Made by a program: the position numbers and the translations under genes
The notes under the pieces: model-generated
Told to the model about the DNA's origin: nothing
Databases searched by the model: none
The model's input: only the letters and a program-made list of their open reading frames with translations
Source: Brevibacillus brevis
GTDB lineage: Bacteria > Bacillota > Bacilli > Brevibacillales > Brevibacillaceae
Direction: 5' to 3'
DNA: 64,000 nucleotides
Assembly: GCF_900637055.1 (NCBI RefSeq)
Contig: NZ_LR134338.1
Location: forward strand, 1,241,001-1,305,000
Part shown: piece after piece, positions 1-12,070 of the stretch
Layout of the letters: every line of letters begins with the position of its first letter
Position numbering within the stretch: position 1 is the first letter of the stretch

Positions 1-379
1 ACAGGCTCTCGTTCTTAAACTCCAAAGTATCGCCGGGTTTGCCTATGACTCGTTTTACCCAGAATGTTTTGGCTTCGCTTTTCCCCGTGGCGAGCATGAG
101 TAAAGGATTTTCAAGGATGTCATCTTGTAACGTACGATCCCGGTTTACACGGCTGTCGACCACGACAATATCGTTGTACTCAGGGAGATAAGAGAATGTG
201 TGGGATAATTTCGACACATAGATGCGTTCATCGTTTTGCAAAGTGGGCTCCATCGATTGTCCATTCACTTTAAATGGTTGGAGGACAAATATGTTAACCA
301 GCATTGCGAGTGAGATGGAGATGCCCAACGTTTTGGTCCAGCCCCATAATTCTTTTACGCTTTTCAAATCAGACCGCAT
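1..379 (-). CDS. lepB: Signal peptidase I, partial (C-terminus beyond window)
   Basis: Membrane-bound serine protease that removes signal peptides from exported proteins. The visible 126 codons have a short cytoplasmic N-terminus, one membrane segment at about residues 18-34, then the motif NGQSMEPT with the catalytic Ser at about 42, and WVKRVIGKPGD with the general-base Lys at about 109. The Ser-Lys spacing of about 67 is longer than in SipS of Bacillus, because of an extra stretch near residues 76-104. The start is the ATG at 379. The gene overlaps the end of the preceding small membrane protein by 16 bp, so the two are probably co-transcribed. The rest lies left of position 1. Confidence 0.93.
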   Translation of the reverse strand, partial: MRSDLKSVKELWGWTKTLGISISLAMLVNIFVLQPFKVNGQSMEPTLQNDERIYVSKLSHTFSYLPEYNDIVVVDSRVNRDRTLQDDILENPLLMLATGKSEAKTFWVKRVIGKPGDTLEFKNESL

Positions 380-2015: not shown

Positions 2016-2693
2016 TTAGCCAACTTTCCTGATCACTTTCGAATTTCCACCTGAACTGATAATGATCCATCCTTCAGGAACAGGCGAGGCTTGCAGTACC
2101 TCAATCTGTGTTCCGTTAGGAGCATCATTAACATTTCTGATCACATTCGATCCTCCATAGGTTCGAACCATGATCCATCCTTTTGGGATAGGCGAAGCGA
2201 GCATCACTTCTACCTCCGTGCCGTACGAAGCACCGTTCATATTCTTGAGTACATTCGATCCTCTAAAGGCTCGAACCATGACCCATCCTTCAGGAATAGG
2301 CGAGGCGAGCATCACCTCTACCTCCGTACCATAAGAAGCACCGTTCATATTCTTGATTACATTCGATCCTCTAAAGGCTCGAACCATGACCCATCCGGTT
2401 GGGATAGGCGAAGCTAGCAGCACCTCTACCTCCGTGCCATAAGAAGCACCGTTCACATTCTTGATCAGGTTCTGCGTTCCTAAAGTTCTAACGATAACCC
2501 ATCCGGCTGGAATAGGTGAGGTAAGCGACACCCAGATTTCTTCACCATACGTGGCGTTTCTGATTTTTTTATTGGAAGCGTAGGTGGTTGCCTTTTCCTG
2601 TGTAGGGAGCGCTGCCCCTTGGACTTGTGTGGCTAGAGAGGGTACTACGACGACTGAACTTAATGACAGGATAATCAGTGCTTTTTTAAACAT
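2016..2693 (-). CDS. Secreted protein of five 36-residue tandem repeats
   Basis: 225-residue exported protein of unknown function. A signal peptide (MFKKALIILSLSSVVVV, cut near VQGA) is followed by five repeats of about 36 residues with the pattern NG-A-YGT-VEV-LASPIP-GW-MVR and a turn ending GSN, then a short VIRKVG tail. The middle three repeats are nearly identical and the outer two have drifted, which suggests recent internal duplication; the DNA repeats with a 108-bp period. The pattern predicts a beta-rich stacked or SH3-like fold. ATG 2693 is preferred because GAAAGG is 9 nt upstream; ATG 2699 is possible. Confidence 0.8.
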   Translation of the reverse strand: MFKKALIILSLSSVVVVPSLATQVQGAALPTQEKATTYASNKKIRNATYGEEIWVSLTSPIPAGWVIVRTLGTQNLIKNVNGASYGTEVEVLLASPIPTGWVMVRAFRGSNVIKNMNGASYGTEVEVMLASPIPEGWVMVRAFRGSNVLKNMNGASYGTEVEVMLASPIPKGWIMVRTYGGSNVIRNVNDAPNGTQIEVLQASPVPEGWIIISSGGNSKVIRKVG

Positions 2694-2885
2694 GAGCATC
2701 AACCTTTCTGAAATGGTGAATGTTGTTTAGAAAACGATTAACGAGTCGTAGCTAAAAGTTTTATATTTCTAAAAATAGTAATTTATTACATTTTATACGA
2801 TTATCGTTCTGATTACTTTAGGAGATATTGTCGAATGGTAGGCAAAGTTGATGATAGGTTGAACAGCCGCGAGAAAAGCAAAAGA

Positions 2886-3943: not shown

Positions 3944-4142
3944 TGTTACCACCTCCAATTTATTGATATCCAATAATACATTACCTTCATATCCATATTT
4001 TAGCAACATCTTCAGATGAGAAATATTACCAAAAAGCGCCCTTTTTTAAAGGAGCACTTAGGCAGCTCATCAAAGTTGAAAAACAGCAGCAACCAAGGAA
4101 TAGGAACTGATGCCCCTTTCGAGGAGCACCAGCCCTGCAGAG

Positions 4143-4346
4143 TTAGTTTTCTAGGTGCGACAGATCATCTGCATCAAACAAGTGTTTCAAGATGGCGTGG
4201 CTCACCTCGGTAACAGGCTCGAAAACAAAAGCAACCAGGTGTTCGTGCGGCTCCAGATAATAATTCCTGTAGCCCAGCTGAATCAACTCCCGATTGAGTC
4301 GCGCTGCATCTTCGAAACTTGCGTAAAAATACAGATGCTTGGTCAT
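4143..4346 (-). CDS. Small conserved-looking protein, unknown function
   Basis: 67-residue soluble protein beginning MTKHLYFYASFEDAARLNREL, with no recognised motif. ATG 4346 is chosen because a near-perfect site (GAAGGAGGTGAT) lies 4 nt upstream. It is the first host gene beyond the prophage and, before integration, lay just downstream of queF, separated by the terminator at 4432-4462. Confidence 0.6.
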   Translation of the reverse strand: MTKHLYFYASFEDAARLNRELIQLGYRNYYLEPHEHLVAFVFEPVTEVSHAILKHLFDADDLSHLEN

Positions 4347-4431
4347 AGTATCACCTCCTTCCGCAGTAAACCGTAGCAGAAGGAATAGAATCACACCAAC
4401 GATCACGACCTTGATTTCTAATTGGAAAAGG

Positions 4432-4462
4432 AAAAAACCCTTATTTACAATAAGGGTTTTTT
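4432..4462. terminator. Host bidirectional terminator, originally downstream of queF
   Basis: Perfect 12-bp stem AAAAAACCCTTA / TAAGGGTTTTTT with a 7-nt loop, A/T-flanked on both strands. It lies 22 bp outside attL, so in the phage-free chromosome it would end the queCDEF transcript. Confidence 0.85.
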
Positions 4463-4484
4463 CTTTCTCATCACCTGATCACTC

Positions 4485-4514
4485 TACCGATTATCCACTT
4501 TCTCCGGATACATA
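4485..4514. other. attL core, copy of the queF 3' end
   Basis: The 30 bp TACCGATT-A-TCCACTTTCTCCGG-ATACATA matches 55851-55880 except for A/G at the ninth base. Read on the minus strand it encodes MYPEKVDNR and a TAG stop, the natural end of QueF, so it is the displaced host terminus. Confidence 0.93.
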
Positions 4515-4525
4515 CTAACAAGCTT

Positions 4526-4551
4526 AAACCCTTATATATCAAGGGTTTTTT
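4526..4551. terminator. Phage-side terminator between attL and integrase
   Basis: Stem AACCCTT / AAGGGTT with A and T tracts on both sides. It ends the integrase transcript on the minus strand. Stem and flanks closely resemble the host terminator at 4432-4462 on the other side of attL. Confidence 0.75.
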
Positions 4552-4567
4552 AGCGTATGAAATATGA

Positions 4568-4590
4568 GTTGTTGACGGATTGTTGACGAA
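4568..4590. repeat. Left integrase arm-type repeat
   Basis: A 23-bp sequence containing TTGTTGACGG and TTGTTGACGA in tandem. The identical 23 bp occur at 55727-55749 near attR. The position just inside the core fits arm-type sites bound by the N-terminal domain of a tyrosine integrase. Confidence 0.75.
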
Positions 4591-4617
4591 AAAAAGGAGC
4601 TGCTGTGTGGCTGCTCC

Positions 4618-5814
4618 TCATGCATTCTTATTCTTTATTGGGATGATATTGTTAAATTTATTTGCTGCTTCTTTGTCTGCGGTTTGGAGAGCATGTCCAT
4701 AAATATTCATAGTAGTGGTTATGCTGGCATGTCCTAGACGTTCAGAGATAATCTTTGCGTGAACGCCTTGGCTGATTAACAGGGATGCTGACGTGTGGCG
4801 TAGTGCATGGAAGCGTATGTATCGAAGTCCATTGTTTTTTAAAAAACGTCTAAAGTGTAAATATGGGGTTGATGGATGAAATGGTTTTCCATCAGGATTG
4901 CAAAATACAAAGAAGTGATTTCCACCATTCCACTTGTCACCCATCTGTAATCGCATCTTTCGAGCATGAAGATAATATTCTTTTAACTGCTCAGTCAAAG
5001 CATCAGGAAGGCTAATCTTCCGCTTTGATTTTTTTGTTTTTGGTTCATTGATGATTGTTTCGCCATTGATCCGCATAGTTATGCTCTGTTTTACTTCAAT
5101 TGTTCCGTTTTCAAGGTCGATATGTTTCCATTCCAAGCCTATAATCTCTCCCCGGCGCAGGCCAGTTGTGATCGCGAAGGTAAACAACAGTCGCCAATGT
5201 ATAGGCTCCTTTTCCAGAGCTTCAAAGAGAACGGCAACATCTTTTTCATCGTACACCTCAACATCTTTATACGATTCTTTGGGCTTCTTAATATCGGACG
5301 CTGGATTCTTTTTTATGACTTTCCATTCCTCTGCCCGCTGTAAAATATTTTTGATAACACGATGAATATATCTAATTGTTCCTGGCGCTAAACATCCTTC
5401 CTGCCCATCTTGCCGGCTACCCGGATCACCTAATTCAGAAATGAACCTCACAATATGAAACGGTTTTATTTGATCTAACCGCATATGCCCAAAAACAGGA
5501 AGAATGCGTCTTTTAAGGTAGCCCATATAAATGTCTCGCGTTTTTGGACCAAGTTCTTTTGATGCAAAATTTTTGTACCATTGGTCAACAAAGGTCCCGA
5601 AAGTCATTTTCTCAGGTGAAATGAACTCCCCAGCCTCGACTTCCATTTTGAATTTCGCCAGTTCCAATTCCAGATGTTCTTTTAACTTCTTTGGTGTGAA
5701 CTTCTCAGTAATTCTTAGTGTCCTCGTACGTTTGATCCGTTTACCTTTTGCATCATATCCTGCTTCCACTACCAGGAGATAGGAGTTTTCTCCACGCTTC
5801 TGATAAGATGCCAT
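4618..5814 (-). CDS. int: Tyrosine-type phage integrase
   Basis: 398-residue site-specific recombinase that inserts and excises the prophage at queF. It has an AP2-like arm-binding N-terminus (residues about 1-65), a SAM-like core-binding domain (about 70-170, TFGTFVDQWYKNFAS) and a catalytic domain with TTGLRRGEI (first Arg), HALRHTSAS (His-x-x-Arg), LGHASITTT and the Tyr nucleophile in NIYGHAL. The length is typical of Gram-positive phage integrases. The start has GGAGG 8 nt upstream. It lies next to attL and is followed by its own terminator; the XRE gene just upstream is probably in the same transcript. Confidence 0.96.
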   Translation of the reverse strand: MASYQKRGENSYLLVVEAGYDAKGKRIKRTRTLRITEKFTPKKLKEHLELELAKFKMEVEAGEFISPEKMTFGTFVDQWYKNFASKELGPKTRDIYMGYLKRRILPVFGHMRLDQIKPFHIVRFISELGDPGSRQDGQEGCLAPGTIRYIHRVIKNILQRAEEWKVIKKNPASDIKKPKESYKDVEVYDEKDVAVLFEALEKEPIHWRLLFTFAITTGLRRGEIIGLEWKHIDLENGTIEVKQSITMRINGETIINEPKTKKSKRKISLPDALTEQLKEYYLHARKMRLQMGDKWNGGNHFFVFCNPDGKPFHPSTPYLHFRRFLKNNGLRYIRFHALRHTSASLLISQGVHAKIISERLGHASITTTMNIYGHALQTADKEAANKFNNIIPIKNKNA

Positions 5815-5826
5815 TCCTATTCCCTC

Positions 5827-6036
5827 CTATTCTTCATCTGGAATGTGTTCAATGATGTCTTCAATGCGGCAATTAAAGTGATTGCAGATTTTATCGAGCA
5901 CTTCCATTGCGACAAACTCGTCTCTACCCATCTTTGCAATTGTTGTTGAATGAAGCGCAATCTGTTCTTTTAAATCTTTCTTTTTCATCCCTCTATCAAT
6001 TAACAACTTCCATAAAGGTTTGTAAGTGAATCCCAA
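5827..6036 (-). CDS. Small XRE/Cro-type regulator in front of integrase
   Basis: 69-residue single HTH protein of the YozG-like type: PLWKLLIDRGMKKKDLKEQIALHSTTIAKM followed by VLDKICNHFNCRIEDIIEHIPDEE. It ends 12 bp before the integrase start and is probably co-transcribed with it, so it may set integrase expression. The start is a TTG at 6036 behind GGGAGGGG. It faces the divergent gene at 6184. Confidence 0.8.
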   Translation of the reverse strand: MGFTYKPLWKLLIDRGMKKKDLKEQIALHSTTIAKMGRDEFVAMEVLDKICNHFNCRIEDIIEHIPDEE

Positions 6037-6118
6037 ACAAAACCCCTCCCTTTCGAAGTAAGTATATCCTTAAAAGTGCTGTGAAGCAAATGAAAAATAC
6101 GCATATGTGATTTTTTTG

Positions 6119-6148
6119 TTGACATTAGTGTGAAAGAGTAGGTAATAT
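6119..6148 (+). promoter_or_regulatory. Promoter for the HTH gene at 6184
   Basis: TTGACA (6119-6124) and TAATAT (6143-6148) with an 18-bp spacer, in the divergent region between the XRE gene and the HTH gene. Confidence 0.7.
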
Positions 6149-6183
6149 AACTACATCAAAGTGATTTTTTAATACCTAAAAAC

Positions 6184-6999
6184 GTGCTGATGGAGGCGAT
6201 TCACATTAATGCTTATACTCTGGAAACAATGGAAAAGTATAGCCGTTTTACGTCACGAGAAGACTTAATATCCACAATCAATCAACACTTGGGTAGTCTG
6301 CAAGAAAAACTAACTCCTGCGACATTGAAAGTTCTTGATGCAATTAGAATGCGTTCCAAGAAGATTTATGGAGTCGCGTATCTAAAAATTGAAACAATCA
6401 TTACTTTAACAAAAGTAAGCCGGGCAAGCGTGGAAAGAGCGATTAGAAAGTTGGATCAGGTAGGGATCATAAAACGAGTGACAACATCCAGAAAAACGGG
6501 ACTCCAAGGGGCGAACATTTACTATTTTTTACCCCTGAATGACGGGGTTGAAGTGACGGGGTTGGACAAGCCCAAAACGCCTGAGAAATCAAAGGTTGAG
6601 GCTCCCAAACAGGATACTAATACAGGGGTTTTTAATACTCCAAAAAGACCAAAAGAAACTAAGAAAAATAACGTAAACGGAACGCACCTCGCGAAAGACA
6701 GCTTAGTAATTCCCTCTTACATCCCGAAAGATTTCGCTAAGTTGATCCAGCAAGGATTTTCATGTGGACGAGTGATCAAACAGTTCTGGAGCAAGGTGGT
6801 GATGTTTAAAAACGTTACAGGATGGACCCGTAACGAAAACGTATTGCCAGTTGCTACAGACGCTTGGGAATACACCAAGAACGAGTACAAGAGGGATAAA
6901 AATGAGTGGGAGCTTGATCGATTCCTAAAATGTTTCTACGGGACGATGAAGCGGATCGAAGAGAAAAGAGTCGAGGAGCACGCAGCGATGTGGATGTAA
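6184..6999 (+). CDS. HTH protein with replication-protein-like architecture
   Basis: 271 residues. An N-terminal winged-helix region (about 40-115, TLKVLDAIRMRSKK then KVSRASVERAIRKLDQVGIIKRV) precedes a charged linker (about 120-165) and a C-terminal part rich in aromatic residues (VIKQFWSKVVMF, WTRNENVLPVATDAWEY). The fold plan recalls plasmid or phage HTH proteins that bind their own locus. The start is uncertain: ATG 6190 lacks a site, while GGAGG at 6192 would serve an ATT at 6205. It is probably an early regulator; its exact role is not known. Confidence 0.65.
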   Translation: MLMEAIHINAYTLETMEKYSRFTSREDLISTINQHLGSLQEKLTPATLKVLDAIRMRSKKIYGVAYLKIETIITLTKVSRASVERAIRKLDQVGIIKRVTTSRKTGLQGANIYYFLPLNDGVEVTGLDKPKTPEKSKVEAPKQDTNTGVFNTPKRPKETKKNNVNGTHLAKDSLVIPSYIPKDFAKLIQQGFSCGRVIKQFWSKVVMFKNVTGWTRNENVLPVATDAWEYTKNEYKRDKNEWELDRFLKCFYGTMKRIEEKRVEEHAAMWM

Positions 7000-7305
7000 T
7001 TTTTAAAAAAGTTTGCCGATACTATAAAATTTTGTTAAGGAAAATGCTATACTATTTGGGTAAAATTTACTTTTGTTAAGAATCAATCTAAAATAGGTAA
7101 AAGCAAAAAGCCAACGGGGTCTGCATAGTTGGTAGCTATGCAAACTCTTTACCACCAAGACACACCCTTGGTGGCGGGCCGGAGCCACTTTCCATTGACT
7201 TAAACATTATTATACAACAAGTGGTACAAATTCGGTGTTTTACTTAAATCCTGCCATCATAAAATTGGTGTAAGGCTTTTGCTTCTCAAAGGAGAGAAGT
7301 AATAA
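7000..7305 (+). promoter_or_regulatory. Leader of the receptor gene with repeats and two hairpins
   Basis: This 306-bp gap has no convincing gene. It contains a direct repeat TTTTGTTAAG (7030-7039 and 7071-7080) flanking the near-palindrome GTAAAATTTAC (7060-7070), then two adjacent hairpins: GCATAG/CTATGC (7122-7141) and CCACCAAG/CTTGGTGG (7152-7174). A strong GGAGAG lies before the receptor start. The repeats could be operator sites for the receptor or cI. The hairpins could be a small RNA or leader structure. No run of T follows them, so they are not a standard terminator. Confidence 0.4.
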
Positions 7306-8532
7306 ATGCCAAACAAAAGAAAATATTTCGGGGAACTATTGCGCGAGCTACGGCACACAAAGAAGTGGAGCCAGGAAGATTTAGCAGAAGTATTGGACGT
7401 TTCGCGGCAAACTATTGCAAATACCGAGAGAGGACAGAACGTCCCAAAGGTTAGGTTCGTAGAGCATGTGTTTCGACTATTTGAATCGGTAGAGATCGTC
7501 AAGGCATATGCCGCTATTCAAGATGACAAACGAGAGCTAATAGCTCTTGCAAATTTCGTAGCAGAGGTAGATTATTCAGTCGCCAAGCAGATCATGAAGA
7601 AGGTAATTCGCGGATCGTTGAAGACGAATGATTTTGAAACTATGTTTCCCGCCATGTTTCAAATTGTGATGTGGGACATGAAGATTAAGAAAAAGGTTAA
7701 CCCGAAGAAAAGCAGCTGGTTAATCAGAATAGCTGAGAATCTTGGTCCAGATCCCGACCTTTTTATCGAGCTGACAGACGAGCTTTATGCAATATCTGGC
7801 TCATCCAAAAATTACGAAGCATTCATTACTATAACCGAGGCAATTAAAGACAAAGTTTATCTGGACAACAGAAAACTATCTTATATGCTGGGACACCAAG
7901 CAAATGCTTATTACTATACAGGCGATGAACACAAGGCTTACAAGAAGATGTCTAAAGCCATCGAAGTAATGAATGGAGAGGTTTATAAACATACTCACTT
8001 TATCTACCACAAGCACGCAATGATTTGTTTGCAAAAATTCAATTACGATGAAGCATTAGAATGTGAGCTAAAATGTTTGGAGATTCTGGAACCAACCAGT
8101 GATTTTCTCAAATTTATCAATGCAGGTCTTGCACGCCTCTACTATATGACAGGAAGATATGAAGATGCACAAATCTATTGGGAATCTGCTTTCAAACGAC
8201 TTGGGAAGAATGACCCCGAGCGGACACATTCCCTTAACGATATCATCATGATGGAGATTAGATTAGGGAACCTTGAAAGTGCTAGAGTCAAAATCAAGGA
8301 ATGCGACGAAATTCTCAAGTTAGCAAGAAAGAGTGACTGGCGACATTACGATGATGAAGATATGTTATTACGTCGTAACAAAGTGATGCTAAAGGCTGTT
8401 GAGACTGGGGAGTATGTAACAAGAGAAGTCGATAATATTCTGCAGGAGCTTGAGAAAAGTCATTTGAAAGATGAATTGTTGCTTACTAAGAATTTTGTCC
8501 TAGAAAGAGCATTATTGTCAGTTAGAATATAG
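7306..8532 (+). CDS. RRNPP-type HTH-TPR peptide receptor and transcription regulator
   Basis: 408-residue protein with an XRE HTH at residues 1-60 (LRELRHTKKWSQEDLAEVLD, VSRQTIANTERG) and an all-helical TPR region from about 70 to the end. Visible TPR-like signatures include LGHQANAYYYTGDEHKAYKKM, KHAMICLQKFNYDEALECEL and AGLARLYYMTGRYEDAQIYW. The length and domain order match AimR, NprR, PlcR and Rgg-type receptors, which bind short secreted peptides re-imported by oligopeptide permease. The peptide gene starts 25 bp downstream on the same strand. It sits immediately before the lysogeny switch. It probably regulates the small downstream transcript or cI in response to peptide; this is inference. 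Confidence 0.88.
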   Translation: MPNKRKYFGELLRELRHTKKWSQEDLAEVLDVSRQTIANTERGQNVPKVRFVEHVFRLFESVEIVKAYAAIQDDKRELIALANFVAEVDYSVAKQIMKKVIRGSLKTNDFETMFPAMFQIVMWDMKIKKKVNPKKSSWLIRIAENLGPDPDLFIELTDELYAISGSSKNYEAFITITEAIKDKVYLDNRKLSYMLGHQANAYYYTGDEHKAYKKMSKAIEVMNGEVYKHTHFIYHKHAMICLQKFNYDEALECELKCLEILEPTSDFLKFINAGLARLYYMTGRYEDAQIYWESAFKRLGKNDPERTHSLNDIIMMEIRLGNLESARVKIKECDEILKLARKSDWRHYDDEDMLLRRNKVMLKAVETGEYVTREVDNILQELEKSHLKDELLLTKNFVLERALLSVRI

Positions 8533-8557
8533 GTATCACGTTGTAGGAGGTTTGTTC

Positions 8558-8749
8558 ATGAAGAAAAAGCTTATCTTCATCCCGAGTCTTGCGTTGTTAA
8601 TCGGATTATTCACTGCGAACGAGGTATCTCTGGCCGGACCACCAGATGGCTGGGGGATAGCTCCAGAAACAAAAGTGATCCAAACTGGAGATTCCGAGCC
8701 AACGACTTGGGGAGTTTCTCCGCTTGGAGGCCCCCCTGACGGTTGGTAA
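8558..8749 (+). CDS. Secreted signal-peptide precursor paired with the receptor
   Basis: 63-residue precursor. It has a basic n-region (MKKK), a hydrophobic core (LIFIPSLALLIGLF) and a likely signal peptidase cut after VSLA. The mature part begins GPPDGWGIAPE and the protein ends GGPPDGW, so the hexapeptide GPPDGW occurs at both ends; a third related unit, EPTTWGVSP, lies between. ATG 8558 is chosen because GGAGG lies 7 nt upstream. Size, export signal, C-terminal peptide and position directly behind the TPR receptor are the hallmarks of Phr, NprX, PapR and AimP precursors. The active peptide is probably GPPDGW or a longer C-terminal form. Confidence 0.85.
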   Translation: MKKKLIFIPSLALLIGLFTANEVSLAGPPDGWGIAPETKVIQTGDSEPTTWGVSPLGGPPDGW

Positions 8750-8763
8750 TTCTAAACCATTAA

Positions 8764-8811
8764 TGTAAAGTGGCTTACAAATTTTGGAGAAAAAAGTTGT
8801 TGCACTTTACA
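8764..8811. promoter_or_regulatory. 9-bp inverted repeat behind the peptide gene, candidate operator
   Basis: TGTAAAGTG (8764-8772) and its exact complement CACTTTACA (8803-8811) separated by 30 bp. The right arm overlaps TTTACA, a -35-like hexamer, with TATAAA 19 bp further on. The arms share GTAAA with the near-palindrome at 7060-7070 in front of the receptor gene. This would suit binding by a dimeric receptor. Confidence 0.5.
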
Positions 8812-8838
8812 GAAAAAAGAATTTGATTGGTATAAAAT

Positions 8839-8872
8839 AACGGTAGGCATATAAGCCTGTCGTTCTTTTTTT
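8839..8872 (+). terminator. Terminator of the receptor-peptide operon
   Basis: Stem AACGGTAGGC / GCCTGTCGTT (two G-U pairs) with a 6-nt loop, followed by CTTTTTTT. Confidence 0.85.
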
Positions 8873-8891
8873 GTTATAGGGCTGGAAACAG

Positions 8892-8920
8892 TTGCAAAAT
8901 GTACAAGATACTCATACAAT
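8892..8920 (+). promoter_or_regulatory. Promoter for the 51-codon ORF
   Basis: TTGCAA (8892-8897) and TACAAT (8915-8920) with a 17-bp spacer, placed just after the terminator of the receptor-peptide operon. Transcription would start near 8927. Confidence 0.65.
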
Positions 8921-8958
8921 AAATAAGAACTTACGTTCGATTCAAGGGGGAGAAGTGC

Positions 8959-9114
8959 GTGATCACTGTTAAGTCAACAAAATGGACTCCAGAACTGGTA
9001 GGAAAGTTACATAATCTTTTGAAAGAGGACCATAGTGAAGCTCTCCAAAATATTGAAGACATCGTTTCGAAAGAAATTCCAAATAAAAGAAAGAACGACC
9101 AGTCTCTCCGTTGA
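8959..9114 (+). CDS. 51-residue ORF between peptide gene and cI, AimX-like by position
   Basis: Small protein starting VITVKSTKWTPELVGKLHNL and ending in a basic stretch (NKRKNDQSLR). It is preceded by AAGGGGGAG and a GTG start; GTG 8955 is an alternative in another frame. It has its own promoter and converges on cI: its stop codon lies inside the hairpin that also ends cI. No known domain is seen. By position it corresponds to the aimX transcript of arbitrium phages, which antagonises lysogeny. It may act as peptide, RNA or antisense to cI; none of this is shown by the sequence alone. Confidence 0.6.
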   Translation: MITVKSTKWTPELVGKLHNLLKEDHSEALQNIEDIVSKEIPNKRKNDQSLR

Positions 9115-9128
9115 GATTGGTCGTTCTT
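9091..9128. terminator. Shared terminator of the 51-codon ORF and cI
   Basis: 16-bp stem with one G-U pair (AAGAACGACCAGTCTC / GAGATTGGTCGTTCTT) and a 6-nt loop. On the minus strand it is followed by TCTTTTATTT. It overlaps the last codons of both converging genes. Confidence 0.85.
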
Positions 9129-9501
9129 ATTTCAGGGCATTCAATATTCCGATTACACGATCCAGGCTTTCGTCATTGTCCTCCATTGCCATCAGGATAC
9201 GAACAGCCTCTTTCTTCTTTTCGCTTACATCTGGGTCATTGAGAATTTTTTCGAAGGCATTTGCTACTTCTACCTGTCCGGCCAACTTCAATAGATTTTC
9301 TAGTGGATAGTCATAAGCAGCTGCAAGCTTTTGAAGAGTTTCGGCAGTTGGGTTTACTGGTTGTTTTGTGCTCCGATTCTTATTTAGCTCTAAATCACGG
9401 ATGTATGTAAAGTTTAATCCAGTCATCTCAGCAACTTCTCTCAAAGAGAGTCTTTTCTCTTTTCTCAAGGCTTCAAGGGTTCTACCAAGTTCGTTTTGCA
9501 T
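9127..9501 (-). CDS. cI-like XRE lysogeny repressor
   Basis: 124-residue repressor with an N-terminal XRE domain (LGRTLEALRKEKRLSLREVAEMTGLNFTYIRDLE) and a helical C-terminus (EVANAFEKILNDPDVSEKK...) without a LexA-type peptidase domain, so induction would not be by self-cleavage. ATG 9501 is preferred because GAGGTG lies 9 nt upstream. Operators at 9522-9562 overlap the presumed promoter, so it is probably autoregulated. It is divergent from the cro-like gene and convergent with the 51-codon ORF. Confidence 0.85.
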   Translation of the reverse strand: MQNELGRTLEALRKEKRLSLREVAEMTGLNFTYIRDLELNKNRSTKQPVNPTAETLQKLAAAYDYPLENLLKLAGQVEVANAFEKILNDPDVSEKKKEAVRILMAMEDNDESLDRVIGILNALK

Positions 9502-9521
9502 TGGATATTTACACCTCATCT

Positions 9522-9562
9522 TTGTAGTGTAGACACTACAAATTGTAGTATATACACGACAA
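9522..9562. promoter_or_regulatory. Tandem operators of the lysogeny switch
   Basis: TTGTAGTGT-AG-ACACTACAA (9522-9541) is a palindrome with perfect 9-bp arms. TTGTAGTATATACACGACAA (9543-9562) is an imperfect copy. A third weaker copy (TTGTGTTGTTCACCATACAA, 9619-9638) overlaps the rightward promoter, and the half-site ACACCACAA lies at 9651-9659. Confidence 0.75.
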
Positions 9563-9610
9563 AATAGGAAGAGATCATTTGTTCTTTTACGGAGAAATAT
9601 AAAAAAACTA

Positions 9611-9639
9611 TTGACGTTTTGTGTTGTTCACCATACAAT
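9611..9639 (+). promoter_or_regulatory. Rightward early promoter (PR-like) for the cro-like gene
   Basis: TTGACG (9611-9616) and TACAAT (9634-9639) with a 17-bp spacer, overlapped by the third operator copy at 9619-9638. Repressor bound there would occlude RNA polymerase. Confidence 0.8.
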
Positions 9640-9721
9640 CTGACGTATAAACACCACAACATGTCGAGTTCAATCTACATAATGTTGCATCTAAGCAACG
9701 CCCCAGGGGGTGAATGTCTCA

Positions 9722-9973
9722 ATGAAAAATACCATTAAGTCTCTACGTAGTCTTCCAGAATATAATCTTTCCCAAGCGAAACTGGCAGAGGAGCTTGGCA
9801 CATCAAGAGATCGGATCAGTGCGATAGAGAATGGCGCGGTTCCCAGTGGAAAACTGATGTTAAGAATCTGCACCTACTTCAATCGCGATATACGAGAAAT
9901 TTTTTTTGATGATGGTGTTGTATGCACCACACAAAAACGTAAAAAAAAACAACAAAAAAGGCGAGTTAAGTAG
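9722..9973 (+). CDS. Cro-like XRE regulator
   Basis: 83-residue HTH protein (LPEYNLSQAKLAEELGTSRDRISAIENGAVPSG, then LMLRICTYFNRDIREIFF) with a very basic C-terminus rich in Lys, Gln and Arg. ATG 9722 is used because AGGGGG stands 11 nt upstream; GTG 9710 lies within that site. It is first in the rightward early operon. Near its end the coding sequence contains nine and then six A residues (9941-9949, 9954-9959), and the next gene overlaps it in another frame without a good start, so a frameshifted fusion is possible. Confidence 0.8.
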   Translation: MKNTIKSLRSLPEYNLSQAKLAEELGTSRDRISAIENGAVPSGKLMLRICTYFNRDIREIFFDDGVVCTTQKRKKKQQKRRVK

Positions 9974-10226
9974 GAAAAATGAGGTTCAGTATGACGAGCG
10001 GGGGAGGATGATCTATCATCCTGAATTCCATCCAAACCAAGGCAAGAGATTCACGGATGAAGAGACAGCCTATCTTTGCAAATTCTACGAAACAGATACT
10101 CTCAAATCTTTGTCACTTGCCCTAGGCCGCTTAGAAAAGTCACTGGAGTACAGGATTGCGTATCTCAAAAAGAAGGCGCTGTTCGATTACTACAGGGACA
10201 GATGGGATCGTCAAATGAATGCTTAA
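9906..10226 (+). CDS. Early phage protein, paralogue of the one at 10841
   Basis: Up to 106 residues. The core runs DERGRMIYHPEFHPNQGKRF, then AYLCKFYETDTLKSLSLALGR and a C-terminal RDRWDRQM. It aligns along its length with the protein at 10841-11131 (shared YHPEFH, EYLCKFYETD, SLALGR and DRWN/D-R), so the two arose by duplication. The DEE-AYLCKFYETD-LALGR part looks like a Myb/SANT-like helical DNA-binding unit. The first ATGs (9906-9914) lie 68 bp inside the cro-like gene and have no ribosome binding site; the true start, or a frameshift fusion with the cro-like gene, is unresolved. Confidence 0.6.
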   Translation: MMMVLYAPHKNVKKNNKKGELSRKNEVQYDERGRMIYHPEFHPNQGKRFTDEETAYLCKFYETDTLKSLSLALGRLEKSLEYRIAYLKKKALFDYYRDRWDRQMNA

Positions 10227-10249
10227 TTTGCTGGGAGGTGAAAAGAGAA

Positions 10250-10573
10250 ATGGCAGATCAAAAAAGCGTCGATTTTTTGGAAGCGTTGGTTGATCAAATC
10301 GCACAGGATGAACGACTAATTGAGAAACTCATTCCTAGACTTTTGGAAAGGCTTGGTGGTAATTCTCAAAAGCCCGATCAGTGGTTAACGGTAAATGATG
10401 CTGCGGAGTATCTGGGAGTATCCATGTACACAATCTACACCATGGTCAGAGAAGGCTCGTTAAAGGCTTCACGTTTGGGCCAACTTAACTCAAGAAAACC
10501 CACTATCAGATTCAAGAAAAGTGCTTTAGATGAATGGTTGGACAATGGAGGGGTACGAGAACAGAATTCGTAA
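10250..10573 (+). CDS. Excisionase-like HTH_17 DNA-binding protein
   Basis: 107 residues. An N-terminal helical part (VDFLEALVDQIAQDERLIEKLIP) is followed by a MerR/excisionase-type HTH: WLTVNDAAEYLGVSMYTIYTMVREGSLKASRLGQ, ending FKKSALDEWLDNGG. The start at 10250 has GGGAGGTG 9 nt upstream. Small proteins of this type act as excisionases or as early regulators in Gram-positive phages. It lies far from int, so a directional role is only a guess. Confidence 0.75.
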   Translation: MADQKSVDFLEALVDQIAQDERLIEKLIPRLLERLGGNSQKPDQWLTVNDAAEYLGVSMYTIYTMVREGSLKASRLGQLNSRKPTIRFKKSALDEWLDNGGVREQNS

Positions 10574-10613
10574 TCCTCGGAATTTTGAATGGAATATGGG
10601 GGAGTGAAAGGCT

Positions 10614-10844
10614 GTGAAGTACGACTTTGATTCTGCGATTACGCGAATAGCAAAGCTGTGGAGCATCTACCGTTCCTTGCGACATCAGCCAGCTGACGGC
10701 ACATGGGACTGGTGGATCGTGAATGAAGTAAACGAGCTGGAAAAGGAAATGGCCACTGCTCGTAACAGTGACCAATTCAACACTCAAACAAATTTGAATA
10801 GTCCTATCCTACCACAGTTTCTTGGAGGTGGACAAGCACTATGA
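10614..10844 (+). CDS. Small early phage protein, unknown
   Basis: 76 residues from a GTG start with GGGGGAG upstream. The sequence has MKYDFDSAITRIAKLWSIYR and several Trp residues (DGTWDWWIV). It overlaps the next gene by ATGA (10841-10844), so the two are translationally coupled. No family is recognised. Confidence 0.6.
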   Translation: MKYDFDSAITRIAKLWSIYRSLRHQPADGTWDWWIVNEVNELEKEMATARNSDQFNTQTNLNSPILPQFLGGGQAL

Positions 10845-11131
10845 CACGAGCTGCTACAGCCGTCGTCATCGAAGACGGAATTGCTTATGATTCATACGGC
10901 CGAATGCAATACCACCCGGAATTTCACTTTAATCATAAAGCACCATTTGAAGAAGATGAGCTGGAATACCTCTGCAAGTTCTATGAAACAGATGCAACAA
11001 GATCACTTTCCTTTGCATTAGGAAGAACGGAACACACGATTAGAACCACGGTTAATCAACTGAGAAAAAACGGAATGTACCAGGTGTATATAGATCGTTG
11101 GAATGCACGCTATGATCTTGAATCTAACTGA
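10841..11131 (+). CDS. Early phage protein, paralogue of the one at 9906
   Basis: 96 residues with the same core as the protein at 9906: DSYGRMQYHPEFHFNHK, EYLCKFYETDATRSLSFALGR, and IDRWNARYD near the end. The shared pattern and the repeated short helices suggest a small nucleic-acid-binding fold. Here the start is clear (GGAGGTGG upstream, ATGA overlap with the previous gene), and it gives about 18 residues ahead of the conserved core. Confidence 0.7.
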   Translation: MTRAATAVVIEDGIAYDSYGRMQYHPEFHFNHKAPFEEDELEYLCKFYETDATRSLSFALGRTEHTIRTTVNQLRKNGMYQVYIDRWNARYDLESN

Positions 11132-11151
11132 AAATACAGGGGGATAAGGAC

Positions 11152-11379
11152 ATGAAATCAACAGGAATTGTAAGAAAGATCGATCATTTAGGACGAGTTG
11201 TTTTGCCAAAGGAGCTTCGCAACACTCTTGATCTTCCGGAAGGTACTCCAATGGAAGTCTTCGTGAACAATAACCAAATCATTCTCCAGAAGTATGTCCC
11301 TGGTTGCGCTTTGTGTGGGAGTGTTGAAAACGTTCATCCTCATAAGAGTGGAAAGTTGGTGTGCAAAGGATGCCTATAA
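11152..11379 (+). CDS. AbrB/SpoVT-type transition-state regulator
   Basis: 75 residues. It has the swapped-hairpin DNA-binding domain of the AbrB family (STGIVRKIDHLGRVVLPKEL, then TPMEVFVNNNQIILQKY), followed by a short C-terminal CALCG-CKGC cysteine pair that may bind zinc. AbrB-like proteins repress post-exponential and sporulation genes in Bacillus. GGGGGAT stands before the ATG. The next gene overlaps its end. Confidence 0.85.
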   Translation: MKSTGIVRKIDHLGRVVLPKELRNTLDLPEGTPMEVFVNNNQIILQKYVPGCALCGSVENVHPHKSGKLVCKGCL

Positions 11380-11891
11380 AACGACAGTTAAAGCTCGCAA
11401 CAAAAATTAAGCGACTTATCCCCAAAGGGAAAAAAGTTTTGTTCGTGTGCGTTGGTACAGATAGATCAACAGGTGATTCTCTTGGTCCGCTGGTTGGTAC
11501 TGCATTGAAAAAACTCAAATTTGACGTGTTGGGAACACTGGACGAGCCTGTGCATGCAATGAATATTGCCGAAACACTTACTCAAATCGAGAAGAACTAT
11601 CCGAACCATTTTGTTATTGCAGTAGATGCAAGCCTTGGGGATTTCAAAAATGTGGGCGATATTGAAGTAGCCTGCGGTGCCCTGAAACCAGGTGAAGGTG
11701 TAGGGAAGGAGCTACCAACTGTCGGTGACGCACACATATACGGAATCGTTAATGTCGGAGGATTCATGGAATATTTTGTCCTTCAAAACACGCGGCTTTC
11801 ATTCGTAATGAAAATGGCCTCTCAAATAGCAGATGCTTGCCATAAGGCAATAAGAGGAAAGGGACGTGGACGTGTGAGGAAAGGAACATAA
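11361..11891 (+). CDS. YyaC-family (DUF1256) sporulation-type protein
   Basis: 176 residues related to YyaC, a GPR-like protein expressed in sporulating Bacillus. Conserved blocks are FVCVGTDRSTGDSLGPLVG at about 29-47, IAVDASLGDFKNVGDIEV, and LKPGEGVGKELPTVGDAHI followed by GIVNVGGFMEYFVLQNTR. The length is normal for the family. The start is uncertain (GTG 11361 or ATG 11370), both inside the end of the AbrB-like gene. A sporulation-linked gene in the early region suggests an interplay of the phage with spore development; the molecular role of YyaC itself is poorly known. Confidence 0.88.
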   Translation: MQRMPIKRQLKLATKIKRLIPKGKKVLFVCVGTDRSTGDSLGPLVGTALKKLKFDVLGTLDEPVHAMNIAETLTQIEKNYPNHFVIAVDASLGDFKNVGDIEVACGALKPGEGVGKELPTVGDAHIYGIVNVGGFMEYFVLQNTRLSFVMKMASQIADACHKAIRGKGRGRVRKGT

Positions 11892-12070
11892 ATTGAGCCA
11901 ACGCGGGCTTCGGCCCTGCGTGCAGCTGATAGGAATTTGTCGGTTGCACGGAGGTTCGAACCTCCAAGTAATACATAGCGGGGCCATCGGGATCAGTCAG
12001 AGGAGCTGTACGGCTGGCAGAGAGGTTGGGCTGCTGGCGGCCTCGCAAAAAAGAGAAAGGAGGAGAAAGA
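11892..12070 (+). ncRNA. Structured non-coding region, possible RNA
   Basis: A 179-bp gap richer in G+C than its surroundings and full of inverted repeats. ACGCGGGC-TTCG-GCCCTGCGT has a UUCG tetraloop (11900-11921). GGAGG-TTCGAA-CCTCC (11950-11965) looks like a tRNA T-arm but has a 6-nt loop and no matching acceptor. Further short GC hairpins follow up to 12040. No good ORF fits. It may be a leader, a processed RNA or a tRNA relic. Confidence 0.35.

Follow-up and report, generated by a model that had tools for sequence, protein, structure and literature searches.

Does a prophage of Brevibacillus brevis carry a peptide signal of its own for choosing between lysis and lysogeny? The question is raised by a receptor gene and an adjoining small gene beside the immunity genes of a prophage in a 64,000-nucleotide stretch of assembly GCF_900637055.1 (contig NZ_LR134338.1, positions 1,241,001 to 1,305,000), here called the window, whose coordinates are used throughout. 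Arbitrium is the best known peptide-based system of lysis-lysogeny control in phages, and an initial annotation of the window had proposed a comparable cassette. The proposed cassette holds up, and on firmer ground than in the initial annotation: also present are a second copy of the peptide GPPDGW, an operator-like repeat, a terminator-like hairpin, a LexA-type box with a promoter-like element, and a small open reading frame (ORF), termed X. The balance of evidence tilts slightly towards the gene pair being a predicted phage-to-phage peptide signal that sets lysis or lysogeny through the small gene beside cI, in an arbitrium-like circuit.

The receptor gene (7306-8532, plus strand, ATG start) encodes a protein of 408 amino acids (aa) with an XRE-type helix-turn-helix (HTH) domain at about residues 8-60 and helical repeats of the tetratricopeptide repeat (TPR) type, a reading of the initial annotation that is confirmed by the ORF and by Pfam (HTH_31, expectation (E) value 9.9e-12; TPR_12, E 2.7e-10; both above cut-off). 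Structure prediction of the receptor alone, which had been proposed as a check, gives an AlphaFold2 model of TPR fold (mean predicted local distance difference test (pLDDT) score 93.6, predicted template modelling (pTM) score 0.85); Rap entries lead the fold search with this model, and NprR and AimR are among the TPR folds matched, while predicted viral structures yield mostly giant-virus TPR proteins. In a PDB profile search, the RRNPP receptor NprR is matched at E 1.5e-4; in the fold search, its identity across the aligned part is 10%. RRNPP(A) receptors are taken to span 250-500 aa with TPR-type peptide-binding repeats, and the 408 aa and the TPR_12 match agree with this description. Membership in the AimR family was considered and rejected, as the curated NCBI model NF038310 has no match at E 0.001 anywhere in the host genome (its positive control matches in 4 of 14 genomes, above cut-off in 1). 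The receptor's NCBIfam matches listed (19 families, E up to 1) likewise do not include AimR, nor do the best 60 of 104 PDB profile matches, the latter absence by itself saying little. The earlier proposal that the GPPDGW system is a new family is supported against this curated model, and against that model only; the locus appears to combine an arbitrium layout with a receptor that, by the model, is not AimR. Separately, L025 was considered as a possible AloR and set aside as a different kind of HTH protein.

The precursor gene (8558-8749, plus strand) begins with an ATG 25 base pairs (bp) after the receptor gene, has the ribosome site TAGGAGG and encodes 63 aa, as first described; an alternative TTG start at 8552 would give 65 aa. 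Its N-terminus, MKKKLIFIPSLALLIGLFTANEVSLA, is an apparent signal peptide ending in S-L-A, as judged by eye; the gene adjoining an RRNPP(A) receptor is expected to encode an exported precursor of 10-100 aa, and the 63 aa and the by-eye export signal are in keeping with this. GPPDGW occurs twice: copy 1 (8636-8653, plus strand; codons GGA CCA CCA GAT GGC TGG) lies right after the S-L-A signal-peptidase-like site, and copy 2 (8729-8746, plus strand) forms the C-terminus. The two copies differ at 5/5 degenerate codons. This arrangement recurs in the nine close loci examined (the window, L035 and L037-L043; L034 and L036 were dropped as duplicates of L040 and L042), in which the gap from receptor to precursor is 15-26 bp, a GPP-type peptide follows an x-x-A site (V, S or A at position -3 from the cut) and is repeated at the end, with 2 to 5 degenerate positions per locus at which the two copies use different codons. 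The peptides are GPPDGW (window, L040), GPPEW (L041, L035, L042), GPPEGNG (L037, L043) and GPPEND (L039, L038). Because the codons differ between copies, recent DNA duplication is no explanation of their identity and selection on the peptide is; thus, the peptide sequence itself is under selection. A protein search with the precursor gives 25 matches at E up to 10, and the 20 that were fetched add the peptides GPPDGWG and GPPEGGG. Two copies are present in 17 of these 20, and in 17/17 the C-terminal copy is exactly repeated at the first place, compared to 54 of 272 cases in a control in which different precursors are compared. The count was made without P0030-P0037 (kinship not shown for P0030/P0031, single copy in P0032, P0033-P0037 not fetched). 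Duplicate pheromones as such are already known (PMC11343458, PMC9765709).

P0030 and P0031 have two or three YGPPE(W/Y)F repeats and are weak matches to the precursor profile (E 0.015 and 0.44). The contig of P0020, a GPPEW precursor, is 2.8 kb long and bears the label Bacillus thuringiensis, which may be an error for Brevibacillus.

The precursor has no Pfam, NCBIfam or significant PHROG match, and a small, exported-looking protein of this kind could also be an effector (a bacteriocin or an exclusion protein, for example) that lies beside the receptor by chance. This explanation is highly improbable: a motif of five to seven residues is kept twice with different codons and changes in step between receptor clades, the adjacency to the receptor persists in distant pairs, and the neighbour has a TPR fold. 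Adjoining receptor and precursor genes of this kind recur at receptor identities from 93% down to about 32%, a pairing that goes beyond chance.

Co-variation of peptide and receptor, the test named in the initial annotation, is found. The receptor tree has 23 rows (P0001, P0004 and P0009 are left out and represented by the window, L035 and L043/L037), of which five are without known peptide; for P0002, P0006, P0011 and P0012 the precursor was paired to its receptor by inference from contigs of equal length. GPPEND (3 rows), GPPEGNG (2) and GPPEW (3) each match a supported clade, both copies changing together, and the four GPPDGW(G) rows fall within a six-row group (94/95, under the star level of the tool) that includes two receptors of unknown peptide. 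The window and L041 have the same operator arms and the same recognition helix (SRQTIANTERGQNVP) but are 55% identical in the TPR part and encode different peptides; the same pattern is reported for the Katmira and SPbeta AimR proteins (PMC9232636). L038 and L039 have the peptide in common but not X and cI. Thus, peptides and receptors seem to recombine against the X-cI unit.

An inverted repeat directly 3' of the precursor, TGTAAAGTG - 30 bp - CACTTTACA (8764-8811), is the predicted operator of the receptor. TGTAAA and TTTACA lie 35-37 bp apart in 9/9 close loci, and the 9-bp arms are perfectly matched in six of these. Scanning of the whole genome finds the pattern TGTAAANTG-26..34-CANTTTACA at two places, each 3' of a receptor-peptide cassette, and no occurrence of the reversed pattern. 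In L038 and L039, an identical change is seen in both arms, and the recognition helix differs too. An intrinsic-terminator-like hairpin with a 10-pair stem and a T run follows between the operator and X (8839-8874, plus strand; -11.6 kcal/mol, z -3.44); in the 5 of the nine loci where it was folded, z ranges from -3.4 to -6.0. The receptor at this repeat might instead be an ordinary activator or repressor of an overlapping promoter (TTTACA ... TATAAA), with peptide control and the target X retained and antitermination dispensed with, given that TTTACA and TATAAA adjoin the repeat in 7/9 close loci and CATAAA takes the second place in the other two. The 19-bp spacing of TTTACA and TATAAA in the window, a pair that the promoter scan did not list, speaks against such a promoter, as does the position of the start site, in or beside the terminator hairpin, from which only a very short RNA could come without relief of termination as well; this alternative is thus distinctly unlikely.

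Downstream of the terminator are a promoter-like TTGCAA-17-TACAAT (8892-8920, plus strand; consensus match only), the LexA-type box GAACTTACGTTC (8927-8938; motif match) and X (8959-9114, plus strand, GTG start, 51 aa), a predicted antirepressor-like target recognized by its conservation 3' of the cassette. The motif GAACN4GTTC is exact at this place in 8/9 close loci and one base off in L042, and the host lexA gene has GAACATATGTTC, the same motif, 105 bp upstream of its start. X is followed by a convergent cI-like repressor of 130 aa (9127-9519, minus strand; ORF and Pfam) and by a Cro-like HTH protein of 87 aa (9710-9973, plus strand; ORF and family matches). The receptor and precursor had been placed ahead of cI and cro; they do lie beside the immunity genes, with the cro-like gene on the plus strand, but cI is on the minus strand and convergent, with the 51-aa ORF in between.

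X is present in 5 of 39 genomes of the family, always 3' of a cassette. In seven of the nine close loci this X is accompanied by one and the same type of cI, and X thus travels with cI; L035 and L039 have another, 43-aa ORF instead and lack this cI, L039 having a different convergent HTH repressor and L035 a minus-strand HTH match at that place. A relative of cI (46-47%) is found in two genomes without a receptor match. The domain search of the cI protein finds HTH families only and no peptidase family; thus, self-cleavage on DNA damage is unlikely, and SOS induction of an HTH-only cI would need a helper. X may be such a helper, acting as an antirepressor. Small LexA-controlled antirepressors give SOS induction in Gifsy phages (PMC3121763), and small ORFs under phage regulators inactivate cI elsewhere (PMC10432266). 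Action of X as a cis-antisense RNA on cI was also considered and is held unlikely as the main mechanism, since one hairpin (about 9091-9128, by eye) marks the end of both X and cI and the reading frame of X is conserved.

The pair may also be a genuine receptor and peptide whose output is not lysis or lysogeny but its own operon or host genes (compare Rap and AloR-Spo0E), with X on its SOS promoter alone and the terminator as the end of the operon. Operons commonly end in a terminator, a promoter-like element and a LexA-type box precede X itself, and host sporulation is proposed as the target of other phage RRNPP systems (PMC10075063). This explanation is unlikely, if a serious contender: exact matches to the operator pattern number just two genome-wide, both between a peptide gene and a small ORF and none at host genes, a small ORF follows the cassette in 9/9 close loci (X in 7, another in 2), and a convergent repressor is present in 8 of the nine, the ninth, L035, having the minus-strand HTH match. 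With cI, the small ORF, the terminator and the operator-like repeat, the case for a predicted role in lysis and lysogeny is stronger than the initial annotation could make it.

In the favoured lysis-lysogeny circuit, the precursor would be exported and cut to GPPDGW, copy 1 by signal peptidase and one further cut and copy 2 by one cut, and the peptide would be re-imported and bound in the TPR groove of the receptor. Peptide-free receptor on the long-spacer inverted repeat is predicted to let the receptor-peptide operon transcript pass the terminator into X, and the peptide would end this read-through. X would disable cI, and through the LexA-type box the SOS response would act on X as a second input. 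At high peptide levels X would then be scarce and lysogeny favoured, as in arbitrium; of all the steps of the mechanism, the direction in which the peptide acts is the least certain.

Several observations weigh against this circuit or its parts. For the receptor, unrelated TPR proteins such as LGN and a proteasome subunit reach similar Z in the fold search. The 9-bp operator arms have one mismatch in L040, L037 and L043; the link between operator and helix amounts to one event; and the recognition helix of L037/L043 differs (SRITIVNTEKG) with the operator nearly unchanged. TGTAAA/TTTACA is not found in L044 and L046 and is not among the repeats listed for L045, L047 and L048. LexA-type boxes are weakly specific, with 2 in the window compared to 0.91 expected in shuffles; the weight thus lies in recurrence at one place and not in the count. 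The precursors of L044, L045-L048 and P0032 have one peptide copy, and the second copy of P0022 is without the last W. X has no Pfam or NCBIfam match, its one PHROG match (E 0.043) is to a family of unknown function, its structure model is poor (pLDDT 63.9), and its ratio of nonsynonymous to synonymous substitution rates (dN/dS) ranges from 0.12 to 1.01 (15 pairs from 6 of the 7 X sequences, aligned with L041 left out).

The element that bears the cassette is a prophage of the myovirus type, with a tyrosine integrase (4618-5814, minus strand; family matches of the window proteins), helicase and primase genes and, downstream, terminase, portal, major head protein and tail sheath. The records that contain close relatives of the receptor bear the name Brevibacillus. 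A receptor profile built from 12 rows matches in 8 of 39 family genomes (E 1e-10 or better), and the same 8 are the genomes that match at E 1e-15 in a class sample of 398, in which 4 candidates per genome were scored among the matches listed. Five viral contigs have a receptor match; INPHARED phage records have none at E 1e-3, and of three viral scans with single proteins, two are without relatives and the third returned the contig of L034 again. Plasmids have no match at the DNA level and three matching records at the protein level, of which only that of B. marinus covers most of the query (96%, 30% identity).

Distant relatives of the receptor have precursors of their own. On the B. marinus plasmid (L046; NZ_CP034542.1, 99411-100688), the receptor (32%) is followed by an overlapping precursor with AGPVEPN, by the inverted repeat CAAACGC-29-GCGTTTG and by a convergent HTH gene; the layout is the same and the operator another. 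L045, L047 and L048 are TPR relatives of 22-23% identity, with matches starting at residue 64, 99 or 116 and, 12 bases 3', a 35-aa precursor that ends in AGPVEPDVIKHDK or similar as a single copy. Elsewhere in the window, a secreted-looking 228-aa protein (2016-2702, minus strand) has about five similar repeats of the form GASYGTEVEVLLASPIPTGWVMVRAF, and a hairpin, CCACCAAG...CTTGGTGG, lies upstream of the receptor at 7152-7174; Rfam at gathering scores gives no match in 4000-12000, this hairpin included.

The host genome, a single contig of 6.73 Mb, has a second cassette at 928 kb (L039), with a receptor that is 41% identical. It lies in a second prophage (921-938 kb) with a very similar replication gene, and it encodes GPPEND beside a different small ORF and a different repressor. 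As the two prophages have different peptides and operator arms that are one base apart each, neither would respond to the signal of the other; the presence of both variants in one host is a natural test of private signalling. Whether Brevibacillus has a non-AimR communication system that reaches the arbitrium circuit by means of GPP-type peptides and of a receptor and operator of its own, joins kin density and LexA-sensed DNA damage on one small antirepressor gene beside a non-cleavable cI, and leaves two prophages of one host mutually deaf stands at even chances. If true, an arbitrium layout on a receptor outside the AimR model means that the solution spread or arose more than once. The LexA-type box lies between the terminator and X, and both inputs are thus testable at one 200-bp region; a link between arbitrium and SOS is described as unknown in phi3T (PMC10769878). 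A 2023 survey of RRNPP systems includes a cluster 8 that spans chromosomes, plasmids and phages of Paenibacillaceae (PMC10075063). No description of this system in Brevibacillus was found in the literature searched, the candidate tables of PMC10075063 not being covered, and a prior listing as a candidate is possible.

Known systems share parts of this design. NprR-NprX of the Bacillus cereus group likewise has an HTH-TPR receptor and then a peptide gene, and it is chromosomal. Rap proteins, including those of the Rap-Phr pairs of phages phi3T and phi105, share the TPR fold but are not known to have a DNA-binding HTH, whereas the receptor here has an HTH and an operator-like site. Phr105 similarly contains two identical pheromone copies (PMC11343458). 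AloR-AloP of Paenibacillaceae, likened here by description, is an HTH-TPR receptor followed by a peptide gene; it is also described from Brevibacillus, controls the next gene, has spo0E-like targets and occurs as many systems per genome (PMC7425212). Prophage modules of a transcription factor and a small-ORF antirepressor are alike in that a cI-inactivating small ORF is under the control of a phage regulator (PMC10432266); by contrast, the regulators described there activate a divergently transcribed gene, while the ORF here follows in the same orientation and the regulator belongs to the peptide-receptor type. Arbitrium (AimR-AimP-aimX of SPbeta-group Bacillus phages) is alike in its phage-borne HTH-TPR receptor, a peptide gene directly 3', a long-spacer inverted repeat 3' of the peptide gene, a terminator and a 51-residue ORF, X and AimX being likened by place and length. 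The order expected of an arbitrium-like temperate phage (receptor, peptide, long-spacer operator, terminator, small ORF) is the order found here; in phi3T, AimR is the antiterminator of the aimP-aimX transcript and aimX also encodes 51 aa (PMC10769878). The two differ in that the arbitrium operator between aimP and aimX is ATCACT-25-AGTGAT, whereas the arms here are TGTAAAGTG, with 29-31 bp between them at the same place; the peptides here are of the GPP type and in two copies; and the small ORF lies beside cI, convergent with it, and is preceded by a LexA-type box.
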